Below, piece after piece: positions 23,738 through 41,284 of a stretch of 64,000 nt of DNA (position 1 is its first letter; each line of letters opens with the position of its first letter). A model generated the notes under the pieces. The model was not told where the DNA came from. It made no database searches and saw only the letters and a list, made by a program, of their open reading frames with translations. Source of the stretch: an uncultured Bacteroidota bacterium (GTDB lineage Bacteria > Bacteroidota > Bacteroidia > Bacteroidales > UBA12481); assembly GCA_903851365.1 (NCBI GenBank), contig CAINOB010000064.1, positions 62,001-126,000 of the forward strand, in the 5' to 3' direction. Both the position numbers and the translations under genes were made by a program.

Positions 23738-24757
23738 ATGCGACAAATCACACAGGAAGATATCGCAAGAAAATTAAATGTTACCAGGATCACTGTATCC
23801 AAGGCTTTACGGGATTATCCTGATATATCAGCAAATATGAAAAGGCGGGTGCTGGAAACCGCCGAAGAGATGGGCTATCTGCCCAACGAGATTGCTCAGC
23901 AACTGACTACCAGAACGACAAAGACTATTGGAGTAATTGTACCAGACCTTGAAAACAGCTTTTTCAGCCATGTAGTAAACAGCATTATCGATACTGCAAC
24001 CAGCCGGGGCTACCAGGTATTACTGGCGGTATCCAGGGAAAATGTTGAGCTGGAGAAAAAAAACATTAGGAACCTGATTGGCAAAAGAGTGGATGGATTA
24101 CTGGTTTGCCTTTCGCAGTTAACCTCTGATCCTGAATCCTTTGATTTCGTCAGGAAGATGGAAATTCCATTGGTCTTCTTCGATCGCGCGTTTACAGATT
24201 GTGGCTTCAGCAGTGTTACCTTTGATGATAAACAAGGAGTATCGATGGCTCTGGATAATTTGGTACAGGCGGGATATTCGAAAATCGCTCATTTTGCCGG
24301 ATATCAGACCACAAACATTGGTAAGGAAAGACTCGAAGGCTATAGGTTGGGATTGATGAAACACGGACTTTCCACGAGGGAAGACTGGATTATCGAAGGG
24401 GGATATGAGCTGATGGATGGATACCGGTCCTTCATGAAATTGGGTGAAACAGCTAGTTTTCCGGAGATCATACTGGCGGTAAACGATCGGGTGGCTTTAG
24501 GGGTTTATAAAGCCATTGCTGAGTTGGAACTGGCAGTGCCGGACGATATCGGTGTGGCAGGTTTCGGCTTTATGGAAACGGTTGAGATGTTTACGCCACC
24601 ACTGGCTATCATACATCAGGACCCCAGAGAAATGGGGCGTCTTGCGGCCGATCGCCTCATCGATGAGATTCAGCAGTTAGCCAAGCCTGGCGAAAAAATC
24701 AAACTTGAGGAGAGCTTCCATTGGAACAAATCTATTTTAAAAAATAAGAAGAAATGA
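23738..24757 (+). CDS. LacI-family transcriptional regulator
   Basis: This 339-residue repressor has the LacI helix-turn-helix at the N-terminus (ITQEDIARKLNVTRITVSKA), a hinge ending QQLTTRTTKTIGVIVPDLEN, and a periplasmic-binding-protein-like sugar domain (VDGLLVCLSQ, ILAVNDRVALGVYKAI, VAGFGFMETVEMFTPPL). It should bind an operator in the absence or presence of a sugar. It overlaps the next gene by 4 nt and is followed by three glycoside hydrolase genes, so it probably controls them. The effector is unknown. Confidence 0.93.
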   Translation: MRQITQEDIARKLNVTRITVSKALRDYPDISANMKRRVLETAEEMGYLPNEIAQQLTTRTTKTIGVIVPDLENSFFSHVVNSIIDTATSRGYQVLLAVSRENVELEKKNIRNLIGKRVDGLLVCLSQLTSDPESFDFVRKMEIPLVFFDRAFTDCGFSSVTFDDKQGVSMALDNLVQAGYSKIAHFAGYQTTNIGKERLEGYRLGLMKHGLSTREDWIIEGGYELMDGYRSFMKLGETASFPEIILAVNDRVALGVYKAIAELELAVPDDIGVAGFGFMETVEMFTPPLAIIHQDPREMGRLAADRLIDEIQQLAKPGEKIKLEESFHWNKSILKNKKK

Positions 24758-25749
24758 AAAAAGTAGTAGTAGCCGGAGCTGGTGGATTCATCGGCGGACA
24801 TCTGGTAAAAGCATTAATAGCACGCGGCTATCAGGTTCGGGCAGTGGATAAAAAGCCGCTTAATCAGTGGTATCAGGTCACTGAAGGTGCCGATAACCTG
24901 ATTCTTGACCTTACGTTGAAAGAAAACTGTTATCAGGCGCTGAACGGCTTTCACGAAGTGTTTAATCTGGCTGCCGATATGGGGGGCATGGGCTTTATCG
25001 AAACCCATAAAGCGGATTGCATGCTCAGCGTGCTGATTAATACCCATTTGCTGATGGCCGCACGGGATAAGGGTATCAGAAGGTTCTTTTATGCCTCATC
25101 AGCCTGCGTTTACAATGCATCCAAACAGACTGATACCGACAATCCCGGTCTGCGCGAAACCGATGCTTATCCAGCCATGGCCGAGGACGGATACGGATGG
25201 GAAAAACTTTTCAGCGAGCGCATGTGCCGGCATTTCAGCGAGGATTACGGAATCACGGTCAGAATAGCCCGTTTTCATAATGTTTATGGTCCGTTCGGCA
25301 CATACGACGGTGGCCGGGAAAAAGCTCCGGCAGCACTTTGCCGCAAGGTAATTGATGCAGAAGTGAATGGGGTGAAAGATCTCGTGATCTGGGGCGATGG
25401 CCTTCAAACCCGGAGTTTTATGTATATCGATGATTGCATCAAGGGGATTCTCGATATCATGTACAGTAATATCGAGGAACCGATAAACCTGGGCAGCAGT
25501 GAAATGGTATCTATCAACCAGCTGGCCGACATGGCCGAGGATATCGGCGGCGTGAAGCTGGACCGTTTATATGACCTGACCGCTCCAAAAGGGGTTCGCG
25601 GGCGAAACAGCGAAAACACCCTGATCAGGAAATATCTAAACTGGGAACCATCAACCCCGCTTATCGACGGGTTGCGGCAGACTTACGCATGGATACGAGA
25701 GCAGATGATAGCTGCCAAGGAATCCAATAAACCGGTAAGGTTCAACTGA
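24754..25749 (+). CDS. GDP-mannose 3,5-epimerase-like NAD-dependent epimerase
   Basis: This 331-residue extended-SDR enzyme has the NAD motif VAGAGGFIGGHL at 6-17. NLAADMGGMGFI at 71-82 is characteristic of GDP-mannose 3,5-epimerase. The catalytic set fits that enzyme with exact spacing: Cys118 in SSACVYN, Tyr147 and Lys151 in YGWEK, and Lys190 in GGREKAPAA. RIARFHNVYGPFGTYDGG also agrees. The plant enzyme makes GDP-L-galactose and GDP-L-gulose for ascorbate; bacterial relatives exist. The 4-nt overlap with the LacI gene and the following galactosidases suggest a role in handling an unusual hexose, but this is inference. Confidence 0.8.
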   Translation: MKKVVVAGAGGFIGGHLVKALIARGYQVRAVDKKPLNQWYQVTEGADNLILDLTLKENCYQALNGFHEVFNLAADMGGMGFIETHKADCMLSVLINTHLLMAARDKGIRRFFYASSACVYNASKQTDTDNPGLRETDAYPAMAEDGYGWEKLFSERMCRHFSEDYGITVRIARFHNVYGPFGTYDGGREKAPAALCRKVIDAEVNGVKDLVIWGDGLQTRSFMYIDDCIKGILDIMYSNIEEPINLGSSEMVSINQLADMAEDIGGVKLDRLYDLTAPKGVRGRNSENTLIRKYLNWEPSTPLIDGLRQTYAWIREQMIAAKESNKPVRFN

Positions 25750-25806: not shown

Positions 25807-27288
25807 ATGAAATCTTTCTTGAGACTTACTTCTTTCCTTTTGCCATTTGCCCTCTGCCTCCTGCCTACTTTAGTTATAAGGGCCCAAAGCTCAGATTATA
25901 TCCTCACACCGACGCCAGGCAAAATCCCGCGTATCAACGGCACAACGGTATTTGGTGTCAGGCCGGGTTCGCCAGTTGTTTTCAAAATCGCGGCGACCGG
26001 CGAAAAGCCCTTGAAATATGAGGTTCTCAATTTACCGGTGGAATTAAAGCTCGACTCAAAGACAGGCATAATATCCGGGAGATTTTCAAAGGAAGGAATC
26101 CATATTCTGAAAGTCAGGGTATCAAATAAATCCGGGAAAGCTGAAAAAGAATTGACAATCAAGGTTGGTCAAACCATTTCATTAACCCCTCCAATGGGTT
26201 GGAATAGCTGGAATGCATTCGGAGAATCGGTATCCCAGGAAAAAGTTAAAGCGGTTGTGCAAGCCATGATTGACAAAGGCTTGGTTGATCATGGCTGGTC
26301 GTATGTAAATATCGACGACGGCTGGCAAGGAGTCAGAAATGCGACCGGTGTTCTCGAACCCAATGACAAATTTCCTGACATGAAAGGACTGGCAGACTGG
26401 ATCCATTCGCAGGGTCTCAAATTCGGAATTTATTCATCACCCGGACCCACTACCTGTCTTGGTTTGCCCGGTTCATGGCAATATGAAGAAAAGGATGCGG
26501 CAACATGGTCGGGCTGGGATATCGACTACCTGAAATACGATTTATGCAGTTATAAATGGGATATTTTCGACAAAGCAGGAGACACTTCACAGGCTGCCTG
26601 GATGAAGCCCTTTTTATCCATGCGTAAACCGTTGGATGCAATTCCCCGCGACATAATTTTTTCCATATGTTCATACAATACTATTCCATGGGCTGCCAAA
26701 GTGGGTGCGAATCTTACCCGGCTTTTAGGAGATAACAGGGACGAATGGAAGCCCATCAGTACGTCCGGTTCAAAGGTTGACAAATATTGGGCTCACCAAA
26801 AGCCCGGATTATGGAATGACGAGGATTTGCTGGTTGTGGGTTCCTCGGGCGGCTGGGAAGGGAAAGCAAGGCCAAATCATCTTACCCCTGACGAACAGTA
26901 TTTTCACATGAGTTTATGGTCCCTTTTGGCAACCCCGTTGTTTATCAGCTGCGACCTCGCCTCTGCGGATGATTTTACAATTTCATTGCTGAGCAATGAC
27001 GAAGTGATCGAGGTTAATCAGGATCCACTTGGCAAAGCGGGCCGTTTGAAAATCAGCACACCGGAGTACCAGGTTTGGGTAAAAGAATTAGCAGACGGAA
27101 CACACGCTGCCGGTATTTTCAATTTAAAAAACGAATCACAGGCTATTAATGTAAAATGGTCTGATTTGTCAATCGAAGGCGGCATCGTTAGAGATTTATG
27201 GAAACAGAAAAATATGGGAAAGTTTTCTTCTGAATTTAAGGTAGAAGTTCCACCTCATGGAGTGATGCTTATCAAAATATTCCAATAA
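25807..27288 (+). CDS. GH27 alpha-galactosidase, exported
   Basis: This 493-residue protein has a signal peptide (FLLPFALCLLPTLVIRA, cut near AQS), an Ig-like putative carbohydrate-binding domain (about 30-122) and a GH27 barrel. Family motifs are PPMGWNSWNAFGE near 129-140, NIDDGWQG near 168-175, the nucleophile Asp245 in YLKYDLC, and the acid/base Asp340 in WNDEDLL. A C-terminal beta domain ends the protein. It should release terminal alpha-galactose from oligosaccharides in the periplasm or outside. Two nucleotides separate it from the GH42 gene, so the cluster is an operon. Confidence 0.93.
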   Translation: MKSFLRLTSFLLPFALCLLPTLVIRAQSSDYILTPTPGKIPRINGTTVFGVRPGSPVVFKIAATGEKPLKYEVLNLPVELKLDSKTGIISGRFSKEGIHILKVRVSNKSGKAEKELTIKVGQTISLTPPMGWNSWNAFGESVSQEKVKAVVQAMIDKGLVDHGWSYVNIDDGWQGVRNATGVLEPNDKFPDMKGLADWIHSQGLKFGIYSSPGPTTCLGLPGSWQYEEKDAATWSGWDIDYLKYDLCSYKWDIFDKAGDTSQAAWMKPFLSMRKPLDAIPRDIIFSICSYNTIPWAAKVGANLTRLLGDNRDEWKPISTSGSKVDKYWAHQKPGLWNDEDLLVVGSSGGWEGKARPNHLTPDEQYFHMSLWSLLATPLFISCDLASADDFTISLLSNDEVIEVNQDPLGKAGRLKISTPEYQVWVKELADGTHAAGIFNLKNESQAINVKWSDLSIEGGIVRDLWKQKNMGKFSSEFKVEVPPHGVMLIKIFQ

Positions 27289-27289
27289 G

Positions 27290-29332
27290 ATGAAAAGGAT
27301 TCAATTATTATTGATCGTTCTCTTTGGCGCTTTGACAGTGAACGCTCAGAAAACTCAACTCGGGACAGAGATATGGATCGAGCCAGGGTATACAAAAACT
27401 GATATCATAGGTTGGGTACGACAAGCTTCTGAAGCCGGATTTAAAGACATCAGGATATTCATGATGTGGACTCACGTTGAGCCTCAATTGGATAAATGGG
27501 ATTTTGAGGTATATGACTGGATGTTTGATGCCTGCGCCAAATATCATCTAAAATTACAGGTTACGTTAAATCCAAATCAGCCAGCCTGGCATTACGGGAA
27601 AGAGTATTGGGGATCGATCCATTCGCATGGTATTTTTTCGGATCCAAAAATGAAAGAAGCAGCGGCAAAATACATCAAGATGGTTGTTGAAAGATATAAA
27701 GACAGTCCGGCTTTGGATTATTGGTGGCTGATGAATGAGCCCTATCCCTCCGACAATGAAAGTCCTATTAAGCTGGTTGGTTTCAAGAAGGAAATGAAAG
27801 AGAAATATCACAACATTCAGGCGCTGAATAAATTATGGAACTCAAATTTCAATTCATTTGATGAAATCAAGGATATAAAGGCAATATATAGTGCAGAATG
27901 GGCAGCTGCAGTTCCTTATTACGACTGGACAAATTATTCAAATCACTTCCTCACCGATTTTCAACATTGGGTCAGGGATGAAGTTTACCGTTACGATAAC
28001 CGCCATCGCTTTACAACGAATCCGGGAGCCTATCTTTCCTTGTATCACCGGCAGGAGGCATCGGAATGGATGCCATTTTTAGATGCTTTCGGGCTCTCCA
28101 TCCATCCGATATGGCACTTCGATATGTTTACGAATGAGCAATATGACATGGGTGTTGCAGCCACCTGCGAATTGGGAAGAAGCGTAGCCAGCCCAAAGCC
28201 TTTCTGGGTAGCTGAGTTATCGGGCGGCAACAGCATTTTCTATTTTTGTCCATCGGCCAATGAAATAGCGCAGTGGACCTGGACAGGCATCGCGGAGGGA
28301 GCCCAAAAGATTATTTACTGGCTTCTGAATGCCCGGACATCTGGCAATGAATCTGGAGAATGGGCGCTTCTCGACTTTCAAAATGAACCTACAGACCGGT
28401 TAAACATGGCGATTAATATTGCCGGATGCTTAAATCAGGATTCCGTATTCTTCAATAAAGCAAAACCTCTCGAAAGTAATGTTTCGATCCTTCTCAACCG
28501 GGAATCAAGCCTCATCTATGCACGCAAAAAACAGGGGGAAGAGCACATTGAGGCCGTAATGAGCTGTTATCAGGCGCTGGCTGAAAAGGGAATATCAGTA
28601 AAATTGGAACAGACGCAAGATTTTCCGTGGGCGAAAAGTTCAGGGAAGGCAGTTATTTTGCCCAGTATGATTACCATCCCTGATATCCTGGTGGATTCCA
28701 TTAAGACATTCCTTCGCCATGGGAACAAGCTGATTGTTCTGGGACCGACAGGATATTATAATGAAAAGGAAGATTGCCAGTTTTTAAAATTTCCTTTCAA
28801 GGACGAATTTGGGGCTCAACCGAAAGAAATCCGGTCGATCCAAAACAGCTTTTCCATTTCCACCATGGATGGGAAATACCATTTTGAAGTCAGCAAAAAT
28901 TTTGGGATCATAAATAATCTCACTGCTACGTCCATTGCCCTATCTGAAGGCAATATTACCGGTATACGGAATAAAACCGGTAACAGCGAAGTTGTTTGGA
29001 TTCCTTCGAATATTGATTTGGGAGCCTGGAAGTCAGACAACTCGGAGTTGTCACAATTCCTGTCGGATGAGCTTATTCAATACACAAAGTCACAGCCCTT
29101 TGAATTTGTCAACAAAACCAAACATGTCGGAATGCGAACCCTCATCAACGGGCAATCCTATCTAACGGTGATCAATAATGGAGATGATGCAGCCAATATT
29201 ATCAGGCTGAAAAATAAATTAAACAAAAAGCCTTCCATTCTATTCTGCACCGATAAAACCAGAAAAGAGATCAATCCCGATCAGCAAATCATTTTGTCGC
29301 CGAAGGAGTGCCTGGTTATCCTTTGGAATTAA
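27290..29332 (+). CDS. GH42 beta-galactosidase, exported
   Basis: This 680-residue protein has a short signal peptide (LLLIVLFGALTVNAQ). The GH42 TIM barrel shows the acid/base Glu150 in WWLMNEP and the nucleophile Glu309 in WVAELSGGN, followed by the trimerisation-type domain (about 400-560, with ILPSMITIPDILVD) and a small C-terminal sandwich. Most GH42 enzymes act on beta-galactosides. An exported form is somewhat unusual and fits the other hydrolases in this operon. The preceding GH27 gene ends 1 nt before its start. Confidence 0.9.
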   Translation: MKRIQLLLIVLFGALTVNAQKTQLGTEIWIEPGYTKTDIIGWVRQASEAGFKDIRIFMMWTHVEPQLDKWDFEVYDWMFDACAKYHLKLQVTLNPNQPAWHYGKEYWGSIHSHGIFSDPKMKEAAAKYIKMVVERYKDSPALDYWWLMNEPYPSDNESPIKLVGFKKEMKEKYHNIQALNKLWNSNFNSFDEIKDIKAIYSAEWAAAVPYYDWTNYSNHFLTDFQHWVRDEVYRYDNRHRFTTNPGAYLSLYHRQEASEWMPFLDAFGLSIHPIWHFDMFTNEQYDMGVAATCELGRSVASPKPFWVAELSGGNSIFYFCPSANEIAQWTWTGIAEGAQKIIYWLLNARTSGNESGEWALLDFQNEPTDRLNMAINIAGCLNQDSVFFNKAKPLESNVSILLNRESSLIYARKKQGEEHIEAVMSCYQALAEKGISVKLEQTQDFPWAKSSGKAVILPSMITIPDILVDSIKTFLRHGNKLIVLGPTGYYNEKEDCQFLKFPFKDEFGAQPKEIRSIQNSFSISTMDGKYHFEVSKNFGIINNLTATSIALSEGNITGIRNKTGNSEVVWIPSNIDLGAWKSDNSELSQFLSDELIQYTKSQPFEFVNKTKHVGMRTLINGQSYLTVINNGDDAANIIRLKNKLNKKPSILFCTDKTRKEINPDQQIILSPKECLVILWN

Positions 29333-29364
29333 ATGTTCTGAGGGGAAAAGCTATATTAGCATGC

Positions 29365-32358
29365 ATGAAACCTATTACAATTTTTTGTCTGCTGTTTGCA
29401 GTTTTTTTAGCAAACTCAACAGCATTGTTTCCTGCAAATTACCAGGACAAAACCATTGATCAGGGAACCTGTCGAATTGAATCAAAGGTCCTGCGAGTCA
29501 GCCTCGACCGGTCATTTCCAGCCATTATTGATTATACGCGGATACCAGGCGGACAGATGTTCTATGGTCGTGAGGAAAAACAATCTCAGGTAAAGATTAA
29601 CGAAAAGCTCTATTCCCCGGTAATAACCTCTGTAAAAGCAAAAAATTCAGTGGATTACATCCTAAAGATCCCTGAAATTGATGTTGAGATAAATATCCGG
29701 ATTAAAGTAATCGATAATGTTGTGGATTTTGATGTCACGCGGATTTTCGAGAAAGGAAAATTCAAGGTAAGCACCTTTGAGATCCCTGATCATCAATTAC
29801 TTTCAGTTAGAAGCACTCAGCCAGGAGCTTCCTTTTCAGGAGCGAAAATGTATACGGCAGTCAAAGGCAGCGGGGATACATTCGCGCCATTGAGCGGTGT
29901 GACAGGGACAGACAGCATTCCAAAGGACTTTTTATACGGGATTGTAAATACAGATCAACTGGCAGCAAGCTTGTGGACCAACTCGGTGAATGAGAAATCG
30001 GACAATAACCGGATTCAGAAGCAAACCATCAGAAAGGATGGTTATTACCAGACCGGTATCTGGAGCGGACCCTGGATTTACAGGGCGCAGGGCATGACCT
30101 CAACGGATCCGTTACCCTCTTTAAAGATCATTATTACCAATGATAAAAATGGAGATCAAAAGGTTGATTGGCAGGATGGTGCGATTGCTTTCCGGGAGAT
30201 CATGAATAATCCGCAGGGCAGCGAAAAGATACCCGACCTGGTAGTTCAGAGGATTCCTATGAATTTTGCCAGTCAGGCAACCAATCCTTTCACAAAAACT
30301 CTCGATGAAACCAAGAGGATTTTTTTAAATACCGATGGATTGGGTCAATTTGTGATTCTAAAGGGTTATGGATCAGAAGGTCATGATTCCAAACACCCTG
30401 ATTATGGCGATATCGGCAAAAGGCAGGGCGGAGCTGCTGATATGGAGTTGCTTTGCAGGGAGGCACAGAAATATAATGCTTTTATGGGCGTGCATATCAA
30501 CGGAACCGAATCGTATCCGGAAGCCGTGGCATTTGATGATTCGCTGGTCAACAAAACCAAGAAAGGATGGGATTGGCTCGACGCGTCTTATTATATCAAT
30601 AAAAGGTATGATGCAACCTCCAATAACCGGATGCTGCGGCTTCAGTCGCTCAAGGACCAGGTGCCCTCACTTAACTTTATTTATTGTGATGTATGGTATG
30701 GACGCGGGAGCTGGGACAGCCGCAAGCTCGCCCGCGAAATCCACTCGCTGGGATTAACCCTGGCAACGGAGTTTCCAACTGATCATGAGAACGATGCTGT
30801 CTGGAACCATTGGGCGGTGGATTATAACTATGGCGGCAAAACTATCAAAGGCTTCAACAGCCAGATCGTCCGATTTATACGCAATCACCAGAAAGATACC
30901 TGGGTTGGCCGTCATCCGCTGCTGGGTGGAAGTGAAATGAAGGATTTTGAGGGATGGCAGGGGCGTATCGATTACGACAGTTGCATAAACATGACTTTCC
31001 AAACTGATTTACCTACAAAGTATCTTCAGCATTTTAAAATTATGCAGTGGAACGATGATAAGATCAGTTTCTCGGATCAAGTTATTTCTAAACTTATTCA
31101 GGGTGAGCGGGTGATCGAAAAAGACGGCAGAATTATATTGAAAGGGGATGCTTACCTCCTGCCCTGGAATCCACAAACCGAAGACAAACTTTACCACTGG
31201 AACCCTAAGGGCGGAACCGGCGTATGGGAGTTGCCAAAGGCCTGGAACAACCTGAATTCAGTGGAATTATACAAGCTCACCGATGAGGGACGGCAATTCA
31301 TCAGGAGCCTGAAAGTGGAAATGGGAAAAGTAACTATTGAGGCCGAAGCGGGCATTCCCTATGTGATTTACAAAAAGAAAGTCGCACCAAATTCCATGAT
31401 CGACTGGGGTGAAGGTTCCCTGGTAAAAGATCCGGGATTCAATAATGGTGATTTAAAATATTGGCGAGCTGAAGGGTCCGGAGCAACGACCAAACACAAT
31501 GAGAACGGACAATATGAGCTCGTCATGAACGGCCAGGCAGCGGTCAAGGTAAGCCAGACAATTACCGGTCTGACTCCGGGTTCCTGGTATGCTTCCGTTT
31601 ATGTTTCGACCGGTTCAGGTCGGAAAGCAACATTCGGTATCAACGATTATGGCGGTACTGAAGTCGCCGCCTATGCAACCAGCTCATTATGGGAAAATTA
31701 TATCGCCGCAGATTCCAAGCATGACTCCTTTATGCAGCGGATGTACGTGTTCTTTAATGTTCCGGAAGGCCAGACTACTGCCAACCTGTTTTTAAAGGCC
31801 GATGAAGGGACGTCGCAGGTTGTTTATGATGATGTTCGTGTTGCACGCACCCAGCATCCAATCAGTGCGGACAGTGCATTTTTCCGGGAAGATTTCGAGA
31901 ATATTCCGGATGGCCTGTATCCATTTGTCAAGGGACCTTCAGGCGGAGTGAATGATCCGCGAACGCACCTTTCGGAGCTTCACGCGCCCTATACGCAGAA
32001 AGGATGGAACGGAAAAGCCATTGATGATGTAATCGCCGGACACTGGTCGCTGAAGGCACATGGAGAGCCCACGGGATTATTGCTTCAAACGATCCCGCAA
32101 ACCATCCATTTCACAGCAGGAAAAACGTATAAAGTGACTTTCACCTATGAAGCAACCGGCTCTGATTACGCGCTGGCGGTGGGAGAAGGAACCTCCATAC
32201 AGTCCTCCTTTATTCTCAACTTTGCGAATGTACCGACGCTGGCGACGGTGACATTTATTGCCGGCAAAAGCGGAGATTCCTGGTTTGGGATCGAAAAACT
32301 CAATGAGAAAGAAACCGATTTGGTCATTGATGATTTAGTGGTTACCGAAAAAAACTAA
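29365..32358 (+). CDS. GH101 endo-alpha-N-acetylgalactosaminidase
   Basis: This secreted enzyme of about 997 residues (signal ITIFCLLFAVFLANSTA) should cleave the core-1 disaccharide Gal-beta-1,3-GalNAc from Ser/Thr of mucin-type O-glycoproteins. The catalytic domain carries GYGSEGHDSKHPDYGDIGKR, HINGTESYPEA, the nucleophile Asp442 in FIYCDVWYGRG and the acid/base Glu469 in TLATEFP, in the GH101 order. Two beta-sandwich carbohydrate-binding-type domains follow (about 650-820 and 830-990). The ATG at 29365 is chosen over an in-frame one at 29308 that overlaps the GH42 stop and would lack a signal peptide. GH101 is well known in Firmicutes and Actinobacteria and less common in Bacteroidota. Confidence 0.87.
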   Translation: MKPITIFCLLFAVFLANSTALFPANYQDKTIDQGTCRIESKVLRVSLDRSFPAIIDYTRIPGGQMFYGREEKQSQVKINEKLYSPVITSVKAKNSVDYILKIPEIDVEINIRIKVIDNVVDFDVTRIFEKGKFKVSTFEIPDHQLLSVRSTQPGASFSGAKMYTAVKGSGDTFAPLSGVTGTDSIPKDFLYGIVNTDQLAASLWTNSVNEKSDNNRIQKQTIRKDGYYQTGIWSGPWIYRAQGMTSTDPLPSLKIIITNDKNGDQKVDWQDGAIAFREIMNNPQGSEKIPDLVVQRIPMNFASQATNPFTKTLDETKRIFLNTDGLGQFVILKGYGSEGHDSKHPDYGDIGKRQGGAADMELLCREAQKYNAFMGVHINGTESYPEAVAFDDSLVNKTKKGWDWLDASYYINKRYDATSNNRMLRLQSLKDQVPSLNFIYCDVWYGRGSWDSRKLAREIHSLGLTLATEFPTDHENDAVWNHWAVDYNYGGKTIKGFNSQIVRFIRNHQKDTWVGRHPLLGGSEMKDFEGWQGRIDYDSCINMTFQTDLPTKYLQHFKIMQWNDDKISFSDQVISKLIQGERVIEKDGRIILKGDAYLLPWNPQTEDKLYHWNPKGGTGVWELPKAWNNLNSVELYKLTDEGRQFIRSLKVEMGKVTIEAEAGIPYVIYKKKVAPNSMIDWGEGSLVKDPGFNNGDLKYWRAEGSGATTKHNENGQYELVMNGQAAVKVSQTITGLTPGSWYASVYVSTGSGRKATFGINDYGGTEVAAYATSSLWENYIAADSKHDSFMQRMYVFFNVPEGQTTANLFLKADEGTSQVVYDDVRVARTQHPISADSAFFREDFENIPDGLYPFVKGPSGGVNDPRTHLSELHAPYTQKGWNGKAIDDVIAGHWSLKAHGEPTGLLLQTIPQTIHFTAGKTYKVTFTYEATGSDYALAVGEGTSIQSSFILNFANVPTLATVTFIAGKSGDSWFGIEKLNEKETDLVIDDLVVTEKN

Positions 32359-32370
32359 TATTTTTAGGAG

Positions 32371-33561
32371 ATGAACAAACCACTGAAGCTTTCCCATTTA
32401 TTTTTCACTTTTCTCAAAATAGGATCGATCTCCTTTGGCGGATTCATGGCGCTTATTTCTTCGGTACAGAAACAAGTCGTTGACCGGGATAAATTAATCA
32501 GCAATGAAGATGTTTTGGATGGCATTTCCCTGGCATCTGTTCTGCCCGGACCACTTGCAGTTAATGTGATTGCATTCATCGGCTACCGGTTGAAAGGAAT
32601 TAAAGGTGCAATAGTATGTTTCAGCGGAATTCTTATTCCTTCGTTCCTGCTGATGTTGATTCTCTCCGCCCTGTATCAGAGATTTGGGAATATTCCTGAA
32701 TTCGGATCCTTCTTTGCCGGGGTATTGCCAGCGGTGGCAGCTATTATTGTCAGTGTGGCTGTAGGCATGTTCAGGAAGAATGTTAAAGATTGGAAGCAGA
32801 TTATACTGGTTATTCTATCCGGAGTGATCACCTTTTTCTCCAAATCCTATTTCTCAACTTTGGGGATCATTATAATTTCGGCGCTTATCGGATACTTTCT
32901 GTACCGGACAAACGCAGTTGGCAGCGGGCAGTCGGCAGTTAGCAGTAAGAAGTTAATAGTAAGCAGTAGGCAGTGGGCAGTTGGCCTTATATTGATGGTG
33001 TTTATCTTACTGCTGGCTATTATACCTGAAAATGAAACCTTACTGTGGCTTCACCGAAAAATCACGCTGACATTTTCCGGCATGAGCTTAAGCCTTTTCG
33101 GAGGCGGTTATGTTGCGGTACCGTCGATGCACAAAATAATTGTTGATACCCTTCACTGGCTTACCAATAAGGAGTTTGTCGATGCAATTGCCTTAGGCCA
33201 GGTGACTCCAGGTCCGATTCTGATCAGTGCCACCTTTATTGGCTTTAAGCTTGCCGGATTTTTCGGCGCCCTGAATGCTACTCTTTCTATATTTCTGCCT
33301 ACCGCAATTCTTATGGTCATCTGCTCCCGGTTTTTTGCAATAATCAATAACGCACCTGCCTTGAAAGCTGCCTTTAAAGGATTGCGGCCCGCGATCATCG
33401 GCATGATACTTTCGGCAGCTGCTACCATTCTTGTAAATGCCGGTATTTCCTATAAAACAATTATTCTGTTTTTAGCGATATTGTCAGTGGCAATAAAATA
33501 TAATCCAGATACGGTGTTCATTATCCCTGCAGCCGGGATTATTGGACTAATCTTTCTATAA
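32371..33561 (+). CDS. chrA: Chromate/sulfate-type transporter, ChrA (CHR) family, two-domain
   Basis: This 396-residue membrane protein has two homologous halves. The first has FLKIGSISFGGFMALISSVQ, LASVLPGPLAVNVIAFIGY and the helices after it. The second has LSLFGGGYVAVPSMHKIIV, IALGQVTPGPILISATFIG and its helices. This is the long-chain CHR family, described as exporting chromate and possibly moving related oxyanions. The linker between halves (residues about 182-205) is coded by a heptanucleotide repeat (32914-32983). It starts 13 nt after the GH101 stop and 1 nt separates it from the sulfotransferase gene, so it is within a sulfate-related run. Confidence 0.9.
   Translation: MNKPLKLSHLFFTFLKIGSISFGGFMALISSVQKQVVDRDKLISNEDVLDGISLASVLPGPLAVNVIAFIGYRLKGIKGAIVCFSGILIPSFLLMLILSALYQRFGNIPEFGSFFAGVLPAVAAIIVSVAVGMFRKNVKDWKQIILVILSGVITFFSKSYFSTLGIIIISALIGYFLYRTNAVGSGQSAVSSKKLIVSSRQWAVGLILMVFILLLAIIPENETLLWLHRKITLTFSGMSLSLFGGGYVAVPSMHKIIVDTLHWLTNKEFVDAIALGQVTPGPILISATFIGFKLAGFFGALNATLSIFLPTAILMVICSRFFAIINNAPALKAAFKGLRPAIIGMILSAAATILVNAGISYKTIILFLAILSVAIKYNPDTVFIIPAAGIIGLIFL
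32914..32983. repeat. Ten-unit heptanucleotide repeat inside chrA
   Basis: Ten consecutive 7-bp units follow the pattern GCAGTNN: GCAGTTG, GCAGCGG, GCAGTCG, GCAGTTA, GCAGTAA, GAAGTTA, ATAGTAA, GCAGTAG, GCAGTGG and GCAGTTG. They encode AVGSGQSAVSSKKLIV plus VSSRQWAVG-like linker sequence between the two transporter halves. Gain or loss of one unit would shift the reading frame. Confidence 0.9.
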
Positions 33562-33562
33562 T

Positions 33563-34579
33563 ATGCAAAACCAGCCGTTTACTGCAGTTCAGATGGTCGG
33601 AACCCAGCGTTCCGGATCAAATTTGCTCCGACTGATGCTCAACCAGCTCGAAAGCGTTTCGGCACCCCACCCTCCTCATATCCTGGAGAGATTTGTGCCG
33701 TTATTACCCGCTTATGGCAATTTAAATGACCGATCAGATTTTTTGGAGCTGGCGACTGATATTTGCAAATTGATTGAATGTAATCCTGTTCCCTGGGATG
33801 GAATGGAATTAAGCGGGGAAAAGATCATCAGCCGATGCCATAAAAACAGCATTGAAGAGATTTTCAGGGTGGTGTACGAGCTGCGCGCTGGGAGCCAGAA
33901 TGCTCATATCTGGATCTGTAAAAGCATGGTAAACATTCAGTTTGTCGACCTTTTGGAGCCGGATATCAAACCGCTGTACCTTCACCTGTTCAGGGACGGG
34001 AGGGATGTTGCATTGTCATTCATGAAAGCCATTGTTGGTGAAAAACATATCTATTTCATAGCAAAACAATGGCGCGAAGAGCAGGAGGCGGCGATCAGTC
34101 TGATGGAAAATATTGACAGCAAACGATTTGCGCAGGTGAGGTACGAAAATCTCCTGGCAAATCCGGAAAGGGAAATAAAAACTATTTGCAGCTTCATTGG
34201 GGCGGATTACGACCCTTCCGTTTTAAGTTTTTTTAAATCAAACGAATCAATTAATACTGCCCATTCAGGTGAAATGTGGAAGAATGTTGAGAAGCCAATT
34301 TTGAAAGATAATTTCAATAAGTTCACCAGGGAGATGTCAGCAGCTGATATACAATTATTTGAACAGGTAGCCGGGGAAACTTTGGTTAAACTTGGATATC
34401 CCTTACAATTTCCTGCCAACAACACGCCTTTCACCCAAGATCAGGTGAATGAATTCTCAGCCATCAATGATCAGCGAAAAAAAGATATCAGGTCCAAAAT
34501 AAAGGCAGAAGATCTGGAGAAAAGACAAAGGCAAGATGATCTGCTGAAGAGTATAAGGTGCAGAGTACCGAATTACTGA
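33563..34579 (+). CDS. PAPS-dependent sulfotransferase family protein
   Basis: This 338-residue cytoplasmic protein has the 5'-phosphosulfate loop GTQRSGSNLLR at about 13-23 and the 3'-phosphate strand LYLHLFRDGRDVALSF at about 138-153 (Arg144 and Ser152 in canonical positions). RYENLLANPEREI near 190-205 is typical of Sulfotransfer_1/3 domains. It should move sulfate from PAPS to a hydroxyl or amino acceptor. The APS kinase gene follows 17 nt later, giving a local PAPS supply. The acceptor is unknown; a surface glycan, sulfolipid or small molecule are possibilities. Confidence 0.88.
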   Translation: MQNQPFTAVQMVGTQRSGSNLLRLMLNQLESVSAPHPPHILERFVPLLPAYGNLNDRSDFLELATDICKLIECNPVPWDGMELSGEKIISRCHKNSIEEIFRVVYELRAGSQNAHIWICKSMVNIQFVDLLEPDIKPLYLHLFRDGRDVALSFMKAIVGEKHIYFIAKQWREEQEAAISLMENIDSKRFAQVRYENLLANPEREIKTICSFIGADYDPSVLSFFKSNESINTAHSGEMWKNVEKPILKDNFNKFTREMSAADIQLFEQVAGETLVKLGYPLQFPANNTPFTQDQVNEFSAINDQRKKDIRSKIKAEDLEKRQRQDDLLKSIRCRVPNY

Positions 34580-34596
34580 ATTAATTCAAAGAAATC

Positions 34597-35136
34597 ATGA
34601 CAGAGAATTGTCGCGTATTCTGGTTGTTTGGACGTCCCTGTTCAGGAAAGACGACTATCGCCGAACAGCTCATCGAACAATTATCACAAACAGATCGCCG
34701 TGTCATTTTTATTGACGCAGATTTTCTGCGTACCGGACTGAATCGCGACCTTGGATTCAGCATGGAGGATCGGTATGAAAATATTCGCAGAGCAGCCGAA
34801 ATGGCTTCTTTCATCGCATTAAAAGGGGATACAACGGTTATCTGCGCCTTTATTACTCCAATGAAGGCCTTGCGGGATCTGGCGGCCTCCATTGCCGAAA
34901 GAAACGGAGTGCCTTTTTATCCGGTTTTTGTTGATACCCCCCTGGATGAATGCGTGCGCCGCGATGTCAAGGGGCATTACAAATCTGCCAGCCAGGGGTT
35001 GATGGTACAGTTCACGGGGATTTCTTCACCGTTTGAAGAACCTGCCGGGGATGAACTGAGGATTTCGACCCTGAACCTCACACCGGCAGAATGTGCTCAG
35101 CTGATTATTTCGAAATCGGGGACTGAAGTCAGTTAG
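34597..35136 (+). CDS. cysC: Adenylylsulfate (APS) kinase
   Basis: This 179-residue enzyme makes PAPS from APS and ATP. The P-loop is GRPCSGKTT at 12-20, followed by FIDADFLRTGLNRDLGFS and RYENIRRAAEMA, the APS-binding core, and FTGISSPFEEP near the C-terminus. The usual SPxR segment that holds the phosphoserine in E. coli CysC reads ITPMKALRD here, so Ser is replaced by Thr. No ATP sulfurylase (CysD/N or Sat) is in the window. Its stop overlaps the convergent ASST-family gene by 8 nt. Confidence 0.92.
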   Translation: MTENCRVFWLFGRPCSGKTTIAEQLIEQLSQTDRRVIFIDADFLRTGLNRDLGFSMEDRYENIRRAAEMASFIALKGDTTVICAFITPMKALRDLAASIAERNGVPFYPVFVDTPLDECVRRDVKGHYKSASQGLMVQFTGISSPFEEPAGDELRISTLNLTPAECAQLIISKSGTEVS

Positions 35137-36553
35137 CCAGGATATATGGTTTCAAGCGATCAGCGGGAATAAATTCAACACGGTACGGCATAAATCCGGT
35201 TCTCATTACCCACAGATAACGGCCTTCGAGATTTGTCAGAACGACCACATTCTTTTTAGAGCAACTTTGCAAAACCGTTGAATCACTTACGTAATAAGCG
35301 CTTCCCATTCGTTCGCTGTAAAGCTCCGCCGGCAGGGGAATATTCAATGCCAGCGTTGCCTTCCGGTTTTTTTCATCCATGTTGAATGCAAGCGTCCTCG
35401 ACATCAGCTTGCTTGTACCATTATCAAACAGCATTAATTGATTGCGGAAATTAATATGTACCGCGTGGCTGTTATCAAAAATCCCATTTGCCGGCATTTC
35501 GAAATCACCGCCTTTACCGAATTTCCAGATTACCTTACCTGTTTTGACGTCGATCTTCCAGATTTGCCCGTTATTATAGAATGAAAGTAAGTAGTTACCG
35601 TCGGTGTCATAATTCAGACAATTTGCGTGCATCCAATCGCTCTTATTTTTAACAATATTTTTATCATCAAGAGGATTGAGTGTGTCAAATACGGTCCATT
35701 TCCAAATTTGCTTACCTGCTTTATCCATTACCAGGATTCCATCGCTCTTAACTGTATCTGCCTCTTTGCCACCCCTGGAGCGAAGATCCAGTATCCGCTC
35801 TTCACAGCAAATGGTTACCACCTGATTGAGATCATTGATCAGAACCTCATGGTGGATAGTCTGTTTAAAATCGCCCTGGCCTTTTTTGATATGGAATACG
35901 GTATCACCGGACAAGGTGAGCTCGAGTATCTCATTGCCATAGCTGGTCTGGTAATCCTCTGTTCCGAGCAGGGCAATGATTGTATTGTTTTTGGTGAAAT
36001 GTGCCGTTTTAAATCCGGTCCCATTGATTTGATGATACCATACAATTTTACCCTTTGGATTCAGAAAAAACAGGATCCCGGGAGTTTCTCTTCTGAAAAT
36101 CATGTTATATCCACCCAGAAAATTAGCAGGCAGCACTGTTGTATCCGGGCAAATCACTTTGAAAATATCATTTAGCCACATAGGATAATCCAAAGTGGAA
36201 AAAGTATAATCCCTGCTTACGGATGAGCATTTATCATTGCTGGTAACAATTCGATATCCGTATTCCGTGAGTGGTTTCAGGTTAGTCAGGACCACCCTGT
36301 GATTCTTTGCCAGGGGTGAAACCGGGGTGGAGAAAGGCTCTTTTTCATGACCCTTTGGCCAGTATTTAACGCAAACATCGAGGTTTTCCGTGGTACTGAT
36401 TCCAACAGCTACTTTTAACGCATTGCCATCAGGTGAGCTGAGATGAATTTCTTTAATTTTATTCTCACAAGGGTTAGAACACCCAAAAAGTATCAGGGAA
36501 ACCACGATAACGGCAAGTCTGAAAATTACCATTTCTCTTTTTCTGAGGTTCAT
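35129..36553 (-). CDS. Arylsulfate sulfotransferase (ASST)-family lipoprotein
   Basis: This 474-residue lipoprotein has the signal VSLILFGC with lipid-anchored Cys25. A fibronectin-like region (about 40-120) is followed by a beta-propeller with repeated blades (ILFFLNPKGKIVWYHQ, ILVMDKAGKQIWKW, IWKIDVKTGKVIWKFGKGG). SDWMHANCLNYDTDGNYLLSF near 305-325 corresponds to the ASST block with catalytic His309, and IHHEV near 233 is a second conserved spot. ASST enzymes move sulfate between phenols without PAPS. The placement next to a PAPS-dependent sulfotransferase is notable. It lies downstream of a SusD gene but after a strong terminator, so it is probably separately transcribed. Confidence 0.85.
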   Translation of the reverse strand: MNLRKREMVIFRLAVIVVSLILFGCSNPCENKIKEIHLSSPDGNALKVAVGISTTENLDVCVKYWPKGHEKEPFSTPVSPLAKNHRVVLTNLKPLTEYGYRIVTSNDKCSSVSRDYTFSTLDYPMWLNDIFKVICPDTTVLPANFLGGYNMIFRRETPGILFFLNPKGKIVWYHQINGTGFKTAHFTKNNTIIALLGTEDYQTSYGNEILELTLSGDTVFHIKKGQGDFKQTIHHEVLINDLNQVVTICCEERILDLRSRGGKEADTVKSDGILVMDKAGKQIWKWTVFDTLNPLDDKNIVKNKSDWMHANCLNYDTDGNYLLSFYNNGQIWKIDVKTGKVIWKFGKGGDFEMPANGIFDNSHAVHINFRNQLMLFDNGTSKLMSRTLAFNMDEKNRKATLALNIPLPAELYSERMGSAYYVSDSTVLQSCSKKNVVVLTNLEGRYLWVMRTGFMPYRVEFIPADRLKPYILAN

Positions 36554-36575: not shown

Positions 36576-36615
36576 AAAAAAAGATGAGTCAAAGGTAAAA
36601 ACCTTCGACTCATCT
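36576..36615 (-). terminator. Intrinsic terminator after susD
   Basis: On the minus strand, AGATGAGTCGAAGGT (36615-36601) pairs with ACCTTTGACTCATCT (36596-36582), with one mismatch, followed by seven T. It ends the SusC/SusD transcript just before the ASST gene. Confidence 0.88.
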
Positions 36616-36647: not shown

Positions 36648-38183
36648 TTACTGCCTTCTGTCAGCATTACTGAGGTTCGCATCCAGGTCAACCTGTTTCT
36701 GCGGATACGGGAAGTATTTATCCCTTGGAAGGGTAATGCTTGGCTGTTGCTTGATAGCAGTCAGGTAGGCATTAACAACTTCTTCATATTTACCCATACG
36801 CAGGAGATCCTGGCGCCGTTTACACTCGAAATAGAACTCAAAGCCCCTATCGAGCAGAATGGCATCTCTCAGTGTCTGTTGAGTAAACCCGCTGGCACCG
36901 CCGAGCAGGGTGGCATGCGAACGACCTTTTACCTGATTGATCAGGTTAATGCTTTCCGCATTCGGGCCATTAAGTTCGTTTAAGGCTTCAGCCCTGCACA
37001 TCAGTACATCGGCATACCTCAGGATGGGAAAACCGTGGCCATCATAATAGGTGGTTGAACCGGTTGGGTCGGCATATTTCTTAGAGTAAGCATAAGGCAT
37101 ATAAGTTGATCCTGCAGGGGCAGTTGCCTGACCGGGAATCGGCTCGATATATTTCAAACCGTCGGTTCCCATATAATCAACGAAAAACATATCCTTCCGG
37201 CGATCATCTGTTTTTTCCATCTGATCATAGAAGTACCAGGAAACTCCCAGCCATCCCCAGCGATCAGTGACTTCAGCATTATTGACCGGGCCAAAATGGT
37301 TCATGATTTCCACGCCGTCGACAATTGAATTTGCCATAGCGTTGAAAATATTCTCGCTGCACCACAGGTTGGATTCCTTGAATAATCCTGAATAGGAAGG
37401 ATAAAGTGCGTAAATGTTCAGATCCATGATCTGTTTCGAAAGGTCGGCGGCTTTTTGCCATTCCTTTTCACGCATATACAATTTCATAAGCAGAGTCATA
37501 GCTGCACCCTTACTGGCACGACCAACATCGGTAGTAGGATAAATCGTATGAGAAGTATAGTCAACCGGAAGGTTTGCGGCTGCATATTCCAGATCGGCAA
37601 TAATCACTGCGTTAATATCAGCAACTGGTGTTGTTGACAGCTTGGCCTCATAATCGGCATGAAGAATGTTATTCTCGATATCCTTATCCGTCTGCAGGAT
37701 TACCGGACCAAAGGCATCTGTCAGGTCGACATAGCCCAATGCCCGCAAAAACCTGCATTCTCCAAGAAACTGGGCCTTTTCGGCTTCAGTGATGGAGGTC
37801 ATGTGCGAGATATAATAGATCGATGTATTTGCATCAAACACCAGCTTGTATTGCTGCTGCCATGAAAATGCCAGATACTGATTACTTGGGCCCCAGAGGC
37901 AATTTGTCATATTCTCAACATCGGTACCTCCGTTCGACTGTCCGATATCGGTAGTTAAGTCCGATATAATTGTCTGAAATCCGGCATAATACATCCATGA
38001 ATCGGATATACCGCTTGGTGCTTTCAACCTTGCATATACAGCATTCACTCCAGCAATAGCATCTGCGCGTGACAGGAATGCATTGGTACTCATCAGTGAG
38101 CTGTACACTTTTGGTTCGTCTATCTTGCTACAGGAAAGGATGACCACCAAAACTGCAGGCAATATTATTCTTAAGTGTTTCAT
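36648..38183 (-). CDS. SusD/RagB-family nutrient-binding lipoprotein
   Basis: This 511-residue outer-membrane lipoprotein (signal LPAVLVVILSC, Cys18) binds glycans at the cell surface together with its SusC partner. Family features include ADAIAGVNAVYARLKAPSG, the TPR-like helices FLGECRFLRALGYVDLTDAFG and GAAMTLLMKLYMREKEWQKA, and the C-terminal FPILRYADVLMCRAEALNE and ILLDRGFEFYFECKRRQDL. It lies 20 nt downstream of susC, and the pair ends in the terminator at 36576-36615. The ligand is unknown; no CAZyme shares the operon after it. Confidence 0.93.
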   Translation of the reverse strand: MKHLRIILPAVLVVILSCSKIDEPKVYSSLMSTNAFLSRADAIAGVNAVYARLKAPSGISDSWMYYAGFQTIISDLTTDIGQSNGGTDVENMTNCLWGPSNQYLAFSWQQQYKLVFDANTSIYYISHMTSITEAEKAQFLGECRFLRALGYVDLTDAFGPVILQTDKDIENNILHADYEAKLSTTPVADINAVIIADLEYAAANLPVDYTSHTIYPTTDVGRASKGAAMTLLMKLYMREKEWQKAADLSKQIMDLNIYALYPSYSGLFKESNLWCSENIFNAMANSIVDGVEIMNHFGPVNNAEVTDRWGWLGVSWYFYDQMEKTDDRRKDMFFVDYMGTDGLKYIEPIPGQATAPAGSTYMPYAYSKKYADPTGSTTYYDGHGFPILRYADVLMCRAEALNELNGPNAESINLINQVKGRSHATLLGGASGFTQQTLRDAILLDRGFEFYFECKRRQDLLRMGKYEEVVNAYLTAIKQQPSITLPRDKYFPYPQKQVDLDANLSNADRRQ

Positions 38184-38203: not shown

Positions 38204-41200
38204 TTAGAAATTCAATTGTACACCAAAAGTCAGGATCCGGTAGGCTGGGAAAGCGGTATAGTCTTCACCGCCAGCCAGGTTTGCAGCGCCTCCTCTTGTA
38301 TTAACTTCAGGGTCAGCTCCCTTATATCCGGTCAATGTCAACAGGTTTTGTCCGGTAACATAAACTTTCAGGGTTTTAACTGATTTTAAAACCCCACTGC
38401 CAATCTTGAAGTCGTAGCTCAGGGTAACCACTTTCAGTCGAAGGTAAGAGGCATTCTCAACAAACTTGTCAACGACGCCAAAACCATAACCAGCCTGTAA
38501 ATAACCATCCCTTGGGATATCGGTATTTTCGTTGGTAGTGGTCCAGCGGTTCAATGCATCGACACCAAGACCAGTTTCTAATAAATACCGGCTCACGTTA
38601 AATAACTTGTATCCAGTTGCTCCCTGGAGGAAGACATTCAGTGTGAATCCTTTGTATTTAAAATCGTTGTTAAGACCAAAGATAAAATGCGGGTTGGCAT
38701 TTCCTAAATAAGTACGGTCAGCAGCGGTAACTTTTCCATCGCCGTTGACATCTGCAAAGTGGGCATCCCCGACTTTTGAACCAGGCTGTGACGAACGGTC
38801 ATCTCCGGTTTTGAATACGCCTAAGTACTTATAGCCCCAGATTTCGCTCAATTCATGACCAACTTCCACTTTGGTATAGTCAATGGCACGGCCGCCGTAA
38901 GGAGCAGCGATCTGAGTGATGATGTATGGCCGGCCCCCAAGGTCGAGGCAAGACTGTTTGTTGTATGCCATGTTCAGCTGAGTGCTCCAGCTGAAATTCT
39001 TGGAGATAAAGTTTTCTGTATTGATGCTCCACTCGACACCGTGGTTTTCAATGGCACCTGCATTTACAGTTTGTGTAGCAAATCCTTCCCAGTCGCCGAT
39101 TGGAATATCAAACAGCAGATCGGATGTTTTTTTACGATAGTAATCGATGGTGGAGGTGATCCTGTTTTTGAAGAATCCCATATCCAATCCAATATCCAGC
39201 TGTGCTGTGCTTTCCCATTTCAGGTTGGGATTAGGCAAGCTTCCTGCTGTTGTTCCTGCATAACTGTTATTTCCGTCCAAGGTAACACGGGTTGGAACAA
39301 ACGTGGTCAGATACAGATAATCAGGAATACGGTCGTTACCGGTTACCCCGTAACTGGCACGCAACTTCAGGTTCGACATGATATTCTTAGCTCTGAGTCC
39401 GCTCATGAAATCCTCTTCGAGAATTCTCCAGGCAACGGAACCTGACGGGAAATAACCAGTACGGTAGTTAGGGCCGAACCGGGAGGATGCGTCAGCACGC
39501 ATCGTGAAAGTGGCCATGTATTTATCGAGGAATGAATAATTCAAACGACCATAAGCCGAACTCATTTTGGTTTCGATCATGGAGCTCTGTGAAAACAACC
39601 TTTCAGATGCTGCGCCCAGGTTATAGTATTTAAAGGCGTCGGTCGAGAATTTCTGCACCTGAGCATAAAGTCTCTGTGTATTATCATATTGGCTGGATAC
39701 CCCGAGTACGGCATTGATTTTATGTTTTGCAGCAAACTCATGAGTATAGTTGAAGTAGCCTTCAATCAGGCTTCGTGCCGCGGTGAGGTCAGTTACACCG
39801 GCCCGGCCTCCAACGTCCTGTCCTGAAACAAGTCCGGTTGGGAGGTAGGTTCCTTCCTTGGTAACCTGATATTCAGTACCGCCGTTTACATTAAAAGAGA
39901 GATCCTTAAGAATCTTGTATTCTGCATTGGCGTTGATGGAAAATTTATCGATATACCTTTCGTTCGTCGGGAGCATCAGCCAGGCCATCGGATTATCGCG
40001 GCCTTTCCAACGAGCATAGGTACCATCAGAGTTCAGGTAAGGAGCAGCGGGATTTACCGTGATCAGTCCATACATAACATTGGATGGAACAATTGATCCA
40101 TCATAGTTTTTAAAATCAGAGAAGGTATGGCCGTAATAAACATTGCCACCAACCTTGAATTTTTTACTGAAGGTTTTATCAATATTTAAGCGAGATGTAT
40201 AACGCTTGTAATCAGTGCTCTTCAGAACGCCGTCCTGTGAGAAGTAATTACCCGAGAAAGAGATTCGGGTATCTTCGTTCCCACCGCTGACATTAATATT
40301 ATGACTCTGGACATTTGCCAGGCGGGTTGCGAGTGCAAACCAGTCATTGTTGTTACCATTGGCCAGGTCCTGCGAATTATATGGATGTACCTTGCCGGTT
40401 TCATCAGCCTTGGCATTAGCAACCGTCATAGCTTCCAGTCCGGTCATGAGCTGGAAAGGATTATGCGTTTGTTGAACACCATAATAGCCGTCGTACTGAA
40501 CATTCGTTTTACCTGCCAAACCTCTTTTGGTTGTGATCATGATAACCCCGTTTGCACCGCGGGCACCGTAGATAGCAGTTGCGGAGGCATCTTTAAGTAT
40601 CTGGATATCTTCAATATCATTGGGGTTGATATCCATTCCGGAGGAGGATGGGAAGCCATCGACGACATATAAAGGTTCGTTGGTCGACTTGATCGAGTTT
40701 CCTCCACGCACGCGGATGATCGCCTGATCGCCCGGGGCAAAACTACCCTGACTAACCTGCACACCGGCGGCACGACCCTGGATGGCCAATGCAGCATTGG
40801 CTGTTGTTCCTCCCAGGTTGAGTTTATCTTTCGGAATGGAACTGATTGAACTGGTCAGGTTAACTTTCTTCTCTGAACCGTACCCTACGACAACCACTTC
40901 TTCAAGTGTGGCCACAGATTCCGCCAAAGCAATGTTAATAACACTCTGGTTACCAACTGCTACAGACTGACTGACATAGCCCAAAGAGGAAAATTCCAGA
41001 ACCGCATTCGCATCCGGCACATCAAGGGAATACTTCCCATTGGCATCGGAGTTAGTCCCGGTCTTTGTACCCTTGATAAGGATACTCGCACCAGGCAGAA
41101 CATTACCAGACTTCGAATCCGTGACCGTTCCGGTGACCTTCTTTGGGGAAAGTCCGCCGGCACTTGCCACAGCGACATTGAGGCTGGAAGCAACGAGGAA

Positions 41201-41284
41201 AAGCATGAAAAGACTTAAAACCCCTCGCAGGGATTTTAAACAAAACCCAGTAAGCCGGGCCTGTTTGGCATTGCTTTCTTTCAT
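38204..41284 (-). CDS. SusC/RagA-family TonB-linked outer-membrane transporter
   Basis: This 1026-residue transporter of the SusC type imports oligosaccharides across the outer membrane using TonB energy. After the signal peptide comes a carboxypeptidase-regulatory-like domain (KVTGTVTDSKSGNVLPGASI to IALAES), then the TonB-box-like VATLEEVVVVGYGSEKK. The plug follows (VRGGNSIKSTNEPLYVVDGF and DIEDIQILKDASATAIYGAR), and the beta-barrel ends in aromatic FGVQLNF. No N-terminal extension domain for an anti-sigma signal is seen, so control is more likely by the nearby ROK regulator. A -7 element lies at 41338-41345. Confidence 0.96.
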   Translation of the reverse strand: MKESNAKQARLTGFCLKSLRGVLSLFMLFLVASSLNVAVASAGGLSPKKVTGTVTDSKSGNVLPGASILIKGTKTGTNSDANGKYSLDVPDANAVLEFSSLGYVSQSVAVGNQSVINIALAESVATLEEVVVVGYGSEKKVNLTSSISSIPKDKLNLGGTTANAALAIQGRAAGVQVSQGSFAPGDQAIIRVRGGNSIKSTNEPLYVVDGFPSSSGMDINPNDIEDIQILKDASATAIYGARGANGVIMITTKRGLAGKTNVQYDGYYGVQQTHNPFQLMTGLEAMTVANAKADETGKVHPYNSQDLANGNNNDWFALATRLANVQSHNINVSGGNEDTRISFSGNYFSQDGVLKSTDYKRYTSRLNIDKTFSKKFKVGGNVYYGHTFSDFKNYDGSIVPSNVMYGLITVNPAAPYLNSDGTYARWKGRDNPMAWLMLPTNERYIDKFSINANAEYKILKDLSFNVNGGTEYQVTKEGTYLPTGLVSGQDVGGRAGVTDLTAARSLIEGYFNYTHEFAAKHKINAVLGVSSQYDNTQRLYAQVQKFSTDAFKYYNLGAASERLFSQSSMIETKMSSAYGRLNYSFLDKYMATFTMRADASSRFGPNYRTGYFPSGSVAWRILEEDFMSGLRAKNIMSNLKLRASYGVTGNDRIPDYLYLTTFVPTRVTLDGNNSYAGTTAGSLPNPNLKWESTAQLDIGLDMGFFKNRITSTIDYYRKKTSDLLFDIPIGDWEGFATQTVNAGAIENHGVEWSINTENFISKNFSWSTQLNMAYNKQSCLDLGGRPYIITQIAAPYGGRAIDYTKVEVGHELSEIWGYKYLGVFKTGDDRSSQPGSKVGDAHFADVNGDGKVTAADRTYLGNANPHFIFGLNNDFKYKGFTLNVFLQGATGYKLFNVSRYLLETGLGVDALNRWTTTNENTDIPRDGYLQAGYGFGVVDKFVENASYLRLKVVTLSYDFKIGSGVLKSVKTLKVYVTGQNLLTLTGYKGADPEVNTRGGAANLAGGEDYTAFPAYRILTFGVQLNF

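Follow-up and report, generated by a model that had tools for sequence, protein, structure and literature searches.

A chromate-type transporter and sulfotransferase pair linked to a SusCD-associated arylsulfotransferase: a two-module cassette with a possible role in envelope sulfation

The stretch of DNA analyzed here (hereafter the window), 64,000 nucleotides of contig CAINOB010000064.1 from an uncultured Bacteroidota bacterium of the order Bacteroidales, carries at 32371-36553 a cassette of four genes encoding a ChrA-type transporter, a sulfotransferase (ST) of the kind using 3'-phosphoadenosine-5'-phosphosulfate (PAPS), an adenosine-5'-phosphosulfate (APS) kinase and an arylsulfate sulfotransferase (ASST). 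An earlier note, drawn from the sequence alone, had assigned the four genes to these families, and the assignments hold: all four open reading frames are intact in the window, they match the corresponding Pfam models, and the cut-offs of TIGR00455 and TIGR00937 are passed. The three plus-strand genes are packed as that note described, with 1 nt between ChrA and ST and 17 nt between ST and APS kinase, and the ASST gene converges on them, its frame overlapping that of the APS kinase tail to tail by 8 nt. Absent from the note are SusC and SusD genes that immediately precede the ASST on its strand, the SusD-ASST gap being 94 nt. The cassette and its SusCD pair are laid out as follows:

32371..33561, plus strand: ChrA-type transporter of the CHR superfamily with two PF02417 domains (open reading frame, Pfam, TIGR00937, linkage)
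33563..34579, plus strand: PAPS-type sulfotransferase, ST (open reading frame, Pfam, motif alignment, fold)
34597..35136, plus strand: APS kinase, CysC (open reading frame, PF01583, TIGR00455)
35129..36553, minus strand: ASST/Cpz4-type arylsulfotransferase lipoprotein, propeller type (PF05935, alignment, Foldseek)
36648..38183, minus strand: SusD-like lipoprotein (clustering, profile and sequence)
38204..41284, minus strand: SusC-like TonB-dependent transporter (clustering, profile and sequence)

The linkage of these genes was examined by scanning GTDB representative contigs with three STs and keeping the best 80 of 111 confirmed relatives; after removal of one apparent duplicate (L118, of the contig of L044) and addition of L044, L045 and the window, this gave 82 profile-annotated loci, whose ST orthologs are 42-83% identical. 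ChrA is found in 69/82 of these loci, ASST in 58/82, SusC in 49/82 and SusD in 47/82, and ST, ChrA and ASST occur together in 51/82; since contig ends truncate some of the loci (e.g., L054, L055, L075), the counts of absence are upper bounds. ChrA lies on the ST strand in all 69 cases, within 250 nt in 65 and within 50 nt in 57, with a median gap of 4 nt. The arrangement SusC-SusD-ASST-ChrA-ST recurs frequently, and what comes after it is often either CysQ-APS kinase or GH123 with a DUF5107-TPR protein; the locus with the most similar ST (L107, 83% identical) has the same layout as the window. By contrast, the surroundings of 20 STs from this order that are not orthologs (24-32% identical) contain no ChrA and no ASST, one APS kinase and one SusC; these controls cover 20 of the 29 genomes whose ST matches were all non-orthologous, and several of the stretches are short at contig ends. 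We therefore reject chance neighborhood as the explanation, and the expectation that the four genes would travel together in relatives is borne out.

Sampling by taxonomy gives a similar picture. In the order sample, ST orthologs scoring >290 bits are present in 3/247 genomes, with ChrA adjoining in all three; the ASST, Pfam-confirmed in both of the other loci, directly follows ChrA-ST in one (L045) and lies ~2.4 kb away in the other (L044). Two genomes of the same genus and one of the same family have neither ST nor APS kinase, indicating that the cassette is patchily distributed even among close relatives. In the class sample, ST is present in 6/395 genomes, with ChrA and ASST adjoining in 4/6 (the window, L204, L205 and L207); L204, L205 and L208 of this sample appear to be the scan loci L097, L117 and L085. 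Cultured carriers of the cassette include Parabacteroides gordonii, Dyadobacter fermentans and Pedobacter soli. One locus labeled Heimdallarchaeota (L109) nonetheless has SusCD, which makes its bin label doubtful.

Within this linkage, two modules are apparent, ChrA-ST and SusCD-ASST. Across the 40 loci in which every part is present, the correlation of pairwise distances is 0.86 for ST-ChrA, 0.87 for ASST-SusD and 0.50-0.67 across the modules, and 999 shuffles gave at most 0.20; independent-pairs sign tests of trait correlation on the ST tree yielded too few pairs.

The ChrA protein matches PF02417 in two stretches (4.8e-82; 274.4 bits versus a cut-off of 28.6) and the chromate efflux model TIGR00937 with 242.1 bits (cut-off 171.7). 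The three genomes of the order that have the ST ortholog also hold the three best ChrA matches among 198 genomes (identities of 100, 46 and 42%), ahead of further full-length matches at 28-31%, and the ST-linked proteins form one clade against nine unlinked full-length ChrA proteins of the order. The ST matches PF13469 (Sulfotransfer_3; 3.3e-20, 73.7 bits versus a cut-off of 27) and also PF00685, and no signal peptide was seen in it. Most of its 5' loop, GTQRSGSNLLR, is invariant in 43 aligned rows, as are R144 and S152, the pair to which we apply the Arg/Ser spacing rule for the 3'-phosphate contacts of sulfotransferases. In comparisons with its structural model (predicted local distance difference test score 94.4), tyrosylprotein STs and the CurM/Ols STs tie at Z 20.3-20.8, TPST-1 with bound 3'-phosphoadenosine-5'-phosphate (PAP) scoring 20.8; a phenolic acceptor would fit the tyrosylprotein ST match. 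Three ST orthologs lacking ChrA (L084, L092, L100) stand beside glycosyltransferase-like genes, in L084 and L092 together with a series of dioxygenase-like genes that resemble one another and were named by inspection, possibly reflecting a different use of the same ST.

The ASST matches PF05935 (Arylsulfotrans, 1.5e-24), and its N-terminal segment ends in a lipobox-like LFGC, which agrees with its earlier description as a minus-strand lipoprotein gene; a lipobox-like pattern occurs in 19/40 ASST N-termini, and most of the others begin hydrophobic. Its H235, H309 and H363 are kept in 40/40 sequences and align with H252, H356 and H436 of Escherichia coli AssT (3elq), its active-site histidines, among them the one that is sulfated. 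The role of His436 is given in PMC13426309. Among solved structures Cpz4 is the closest: in profile comparison the ASST is nearer to it than to AssT (165 versus 60 bits), and in Foldseek searches Cpz4 takes ranks 1 and 2, with AssT also among the top matches. Two more distant ASST-type proteins are encoded in tandem on contig 14 of the same genome (L211:7936-11465), and one of them (L211:7936-9618) bears a Por secretion-tail domain by Pfam.

The sulfate-activating context can be read from the source genome (5.23 Mb, 130 contigs, 99.4% complete). Genome searches show that the cassette encodes its sole APS kinase and its sole PF13469 ST. The former matches PF01583 (1.7e-43, 148.7 bits) and TIGR00455 (144.8 bits versus a cut-off of 138.7) and has the GxxxxGKT P-loop. 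The search for ATP sulfurylase that the earlier note proposed recovers CysD-CysN, in a CysH-CysD-CysN cluster on the same contig ~81 kb upstream, and a profile search of the genome finds no PF01747 sulfurylase. The genome's CysH is closest to 2goy (1.6e-47), which we take to be the Pseudomonas APS reductase, and it has both motifs diagnostic of APS reductases, ECC and CxPC. By this family assignment PAPS would not be required for cysteine and would be available for sulfation; a cassette APS kinase serving cysteine synthesis was rejected on the same ground. Next to CysH-CysD-CysN, at L005:10703-18973, are two large proteins with repeats, of 2001 and 750 aa. The CysQ that had been placed at 16.5 kb is indeed there (16513-17319), scoring 216.7 bits, just below the TIGR01331 cut-off of 228.8. 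Across the 82 loci, APS kinase is present in 28, CysQ in 18 and either one in 31, and in one locus (L129) ST and CysQ are fused in a single 621-aa frame. These associations indirectly predict that the ST uses PAPS.

On its other side the cassette of the window adjoins glycosidase genes, also absent from the earlier note: GH101 ends 12 nt before ChrA, at the tail of a plus-strand run beginning at 23738. The remaining features are:

23738..24757, plus strand: LacI-type regulator, opening the run (sequence, clustering)
24754..25749, plus strand: NAD-dependent epimerase/dehydratase, same run (open reading frame, Pfam)
25807..27288, plus strand: GH27/melibiase-type glycosidase, same run (Pfam)
27290..29332, plus strand: GH42-type glycosidase, same run as GH101 (Pfam)
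29308..32358, plus strand: GH101-type endo-alpha-N-acetylgalactosaminidase (Pfam)
16513..17319, plus strand: CysQ-like PAP phosphatase, outside the cassette in the window (Pfam, TIGR01331)
36582..36615, minus strand: terminator-like hairpin of 15 pairs and a T run, between SusD and ASST

Elsewhere GH123 is found in 24/82 loci, GH20 in 6/82 and GH101 in 3/82, a hexosaminidase-type enzyme of some kind being present in 33/82, and a sulfatase-like signature appears in 3/82 only. An M1-type peptidase occurs in 10/82 loci and the DUF5107-TPR protein in 13/82 (L076, L090, L098, L099, L108, L130 and others).

From the genes, folds, motifs, linkage and co-variation seen directly at these loci, we propose that the cassette joins two units, one dedicated to sulfation and export and the other to sulfate transfer in the envelope, a reading to which we give a probability of roughly 0.48. 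We infer the substrate of the ST, the direction and cargo of ChrA, the donor and acceptor of the ASST and the role of the GalNAc-type glycosidases. In the cytoplasm, CysDN would make APS, from which the cassette APS kinase would then make PAPS; the ST would transfer the sulfuryl group to a small, probably phenolic acceptor, and CysQ would clear the PAP. The ChrA-type protein would carry the sulfated product outward, as suggested by its linkage to the ST across phyla and by the efflux role of its family. In Bacteroidota, the envelope-anchored Cpz4-like ASST may take up the sulfuryl group on its active-site histidine and transfer it to a hydroxyl group on a sugar, the glycan being one that the co-inherited SusCD pair and the GH123, GH20 and GH101 enzymes would process. 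A more specific version, which we put forward tentatively and at somewhat less than even odds, is a transmembrane sulfuryl relay: the ST would charge a recyclable phenolic carrier, the CHR protein would export the carrier sulfate, and the Cpz4-like ASST with SusCD would sulfate amino-sugar glycans of the envelope. The earlier note had already raised the possibility that a molecule sulfated in the cytoplasm serves as donor in the envelope. This idea gains support because the ASST is nearest in both profile and fold to Cpz4, whose partner is a PAPS-dependent ST; what does not survive is the picture of a single unit, given the two modules.

Several observations weigh against the proposed reading. 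In the window, E. coli Arg374 is replaced by Tyr, with Arg present in 13/40 ASST sequences, although we did not count this residue as family-defining; no recurrent carrier-making enzyme or polyketide synthase was seen among the neighbor families, for which no dedicated search was made; and the terminator-like hairpin, possibly an attenuator, stands between SusD and ASST, having the longest stem of 20 such sites in the region (18.8 expected by shuffling). Two of the six class-sample ST genomes (L206, L208) have an ST with neither ChrA nor ASST beside it. Among 13 loci from proteobacteria and cyanobacteria, assigned by record title, ChrA is present in 12/13 and ASST and SusC in 0/13 each, so that ASST is not required by ChrA-ST. 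Conversely, two of the five class-sample genomes with an ASST above 300 bits (L209, L210) have SusC-SusD-ASST with GH123 and neither an ST ortholog nor any PF13469 ST in the genome, one of them also lacking ChrA and having only a 25-bit APS kinase match. By these distributions ChrA-ST is the more widespread pair, which SusCD-ASST joins in Bacteroidota usually but not always; the earlier view of the four genes stands as regards linkage, but the unit consists of two modules, with the APS kinase in only 28/82 loci. The distributions also lend weight to a doubtful yet serious alternative, in which two independent units merely share a locus, ChrA-ST exporting a sulfated small molecule (a signal, an osmolyte or a detoxified phenol) and SusCD-ASST using exogenous aryl sulfates in glycan or phenol uptake. 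The stronger co-variation within than between modules fits such independence, as does the setting of the non-Bacteroidota ChrA-ST pairs, 8/13 of which have a PhnD-type periplasmic binding protein nearby (L087, L094, L103, L105, L110, L111, L115, L120), some with methyl-accepting chemotaxis and CheA/CheW-type proteins. It accounts less well for the 51 loci where ST, ChrA and ASST stand together, often arranged as SusC-SusD-ASST-ChrA-ST with almost no space between the genes, and for the nearest ASST structure being Cpz4, which receives its donor from a partner ST. In L209 and L210 a di-haem cytochrome c with a SoxA/TsdA-type domain adjoins the ASST (L209:7816-8817, L210:10197-11210).

Import of sulfate by ChrA for PAPS synthesis, which would make the cassette a sulfate-supply and sulfation unit, appears improbable. 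CHR proteins handle tetrahedral oxyanions, and APS kinase or CysQ does accompany the ST in over a third of the loci; however, ChrA is found with it in 69 of the 82 loci and APS kinase in only 28, and ChrA passes a model built for chromate efflux. Less probable still, and in our view very unlikely, is a locus for breaking down sulfated glycans in which the ASST mainly strips sulfate: SusCD and the hexosaminidase-type enzymes would suit it, but the scarcity of sulfatase-like signatures led us to reject an ordinary sulfated-glycan locus, and the presence of APS kinase, of CysQ and of an ST-CysQ fusion suggests that sulfate is added.

The proposed sulfation, export and envelope-transfer cassette is of interest because its genes stay linked in many bacteria that are only distantly related, and because it suggests testable functions for two protein families with few known natural roles, the chromate-type transporters and the bacterial arylsulfotransferases. 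CHR transporters, known mainly for chromate, would gain a possible everyday substrate class, and the ASST clade is accompanied by a candidate enzyme for making its donor, by the cofactor enzymes and a transporter, and by a pair for uptake across the outer membrane. If the relay exists, it would represent a physiological function for this CHR clade and a natural donor system for this ASST clade; with such gene sets in cultured bacteria, donor, acceptor and transporter cargo are directly testable. In the literature covered, with most subscription journals and all of bioRxiv outside its scope, we found neither an account of two-step sulfation with a CHR transporter and SusCD nor one of a CHR-ST pair whose conservation extends from Bacteroidota into cyanobacteria.

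Several known systems come close to the cassette or its parts. The ChrA shares with the chromate efflux proteins (CHR, TIGR00937) the two-domain architecture and PGP motifs, yet forms its own clade and is tied to a sulfotransferase. The loci share SusC-SusD and glycosidases, and in some cases sigma/FecR or LacI regulators, with polysaccharide utilization loci but differ from these in having sulfate-adding genes and very few sulfatase-like genes. With E. coli AssT (3elq) the ASST shares the propeller fold and three active-site histidines; in the fold match, however, the two are ~14% identical, Arg374 is lost, and the cassette protein is a lipoprotein linked to SusCD and ST, whereas AssT is linked to dsbLI. 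The nearest parallel is the two-step sulfation of caprazamycin in Streptomyces: the PAPS-dependent ST Cpz8 makes a pyrone sulfate, from which the ASST Cpz4 moves the sulfate to the aminoribose, the two acting in series through a triketide pyrone carrier (PMC4257720, PMC6731281), with a sugar hydroxyl as the group sulfated by Cpz4 (PMC6731281, PMC13426309). Two-step sulfation as such is therefore already known. Both systems encode a PAPS-type ST together with a PAPS-independent ASST, as do the 58/82 loci with ASST, the window included; the cassette differs in showing no sign of an antibiotic cluster, in the addition of ChrA and SusCD, and in its setting in a Gram-negative envelope.

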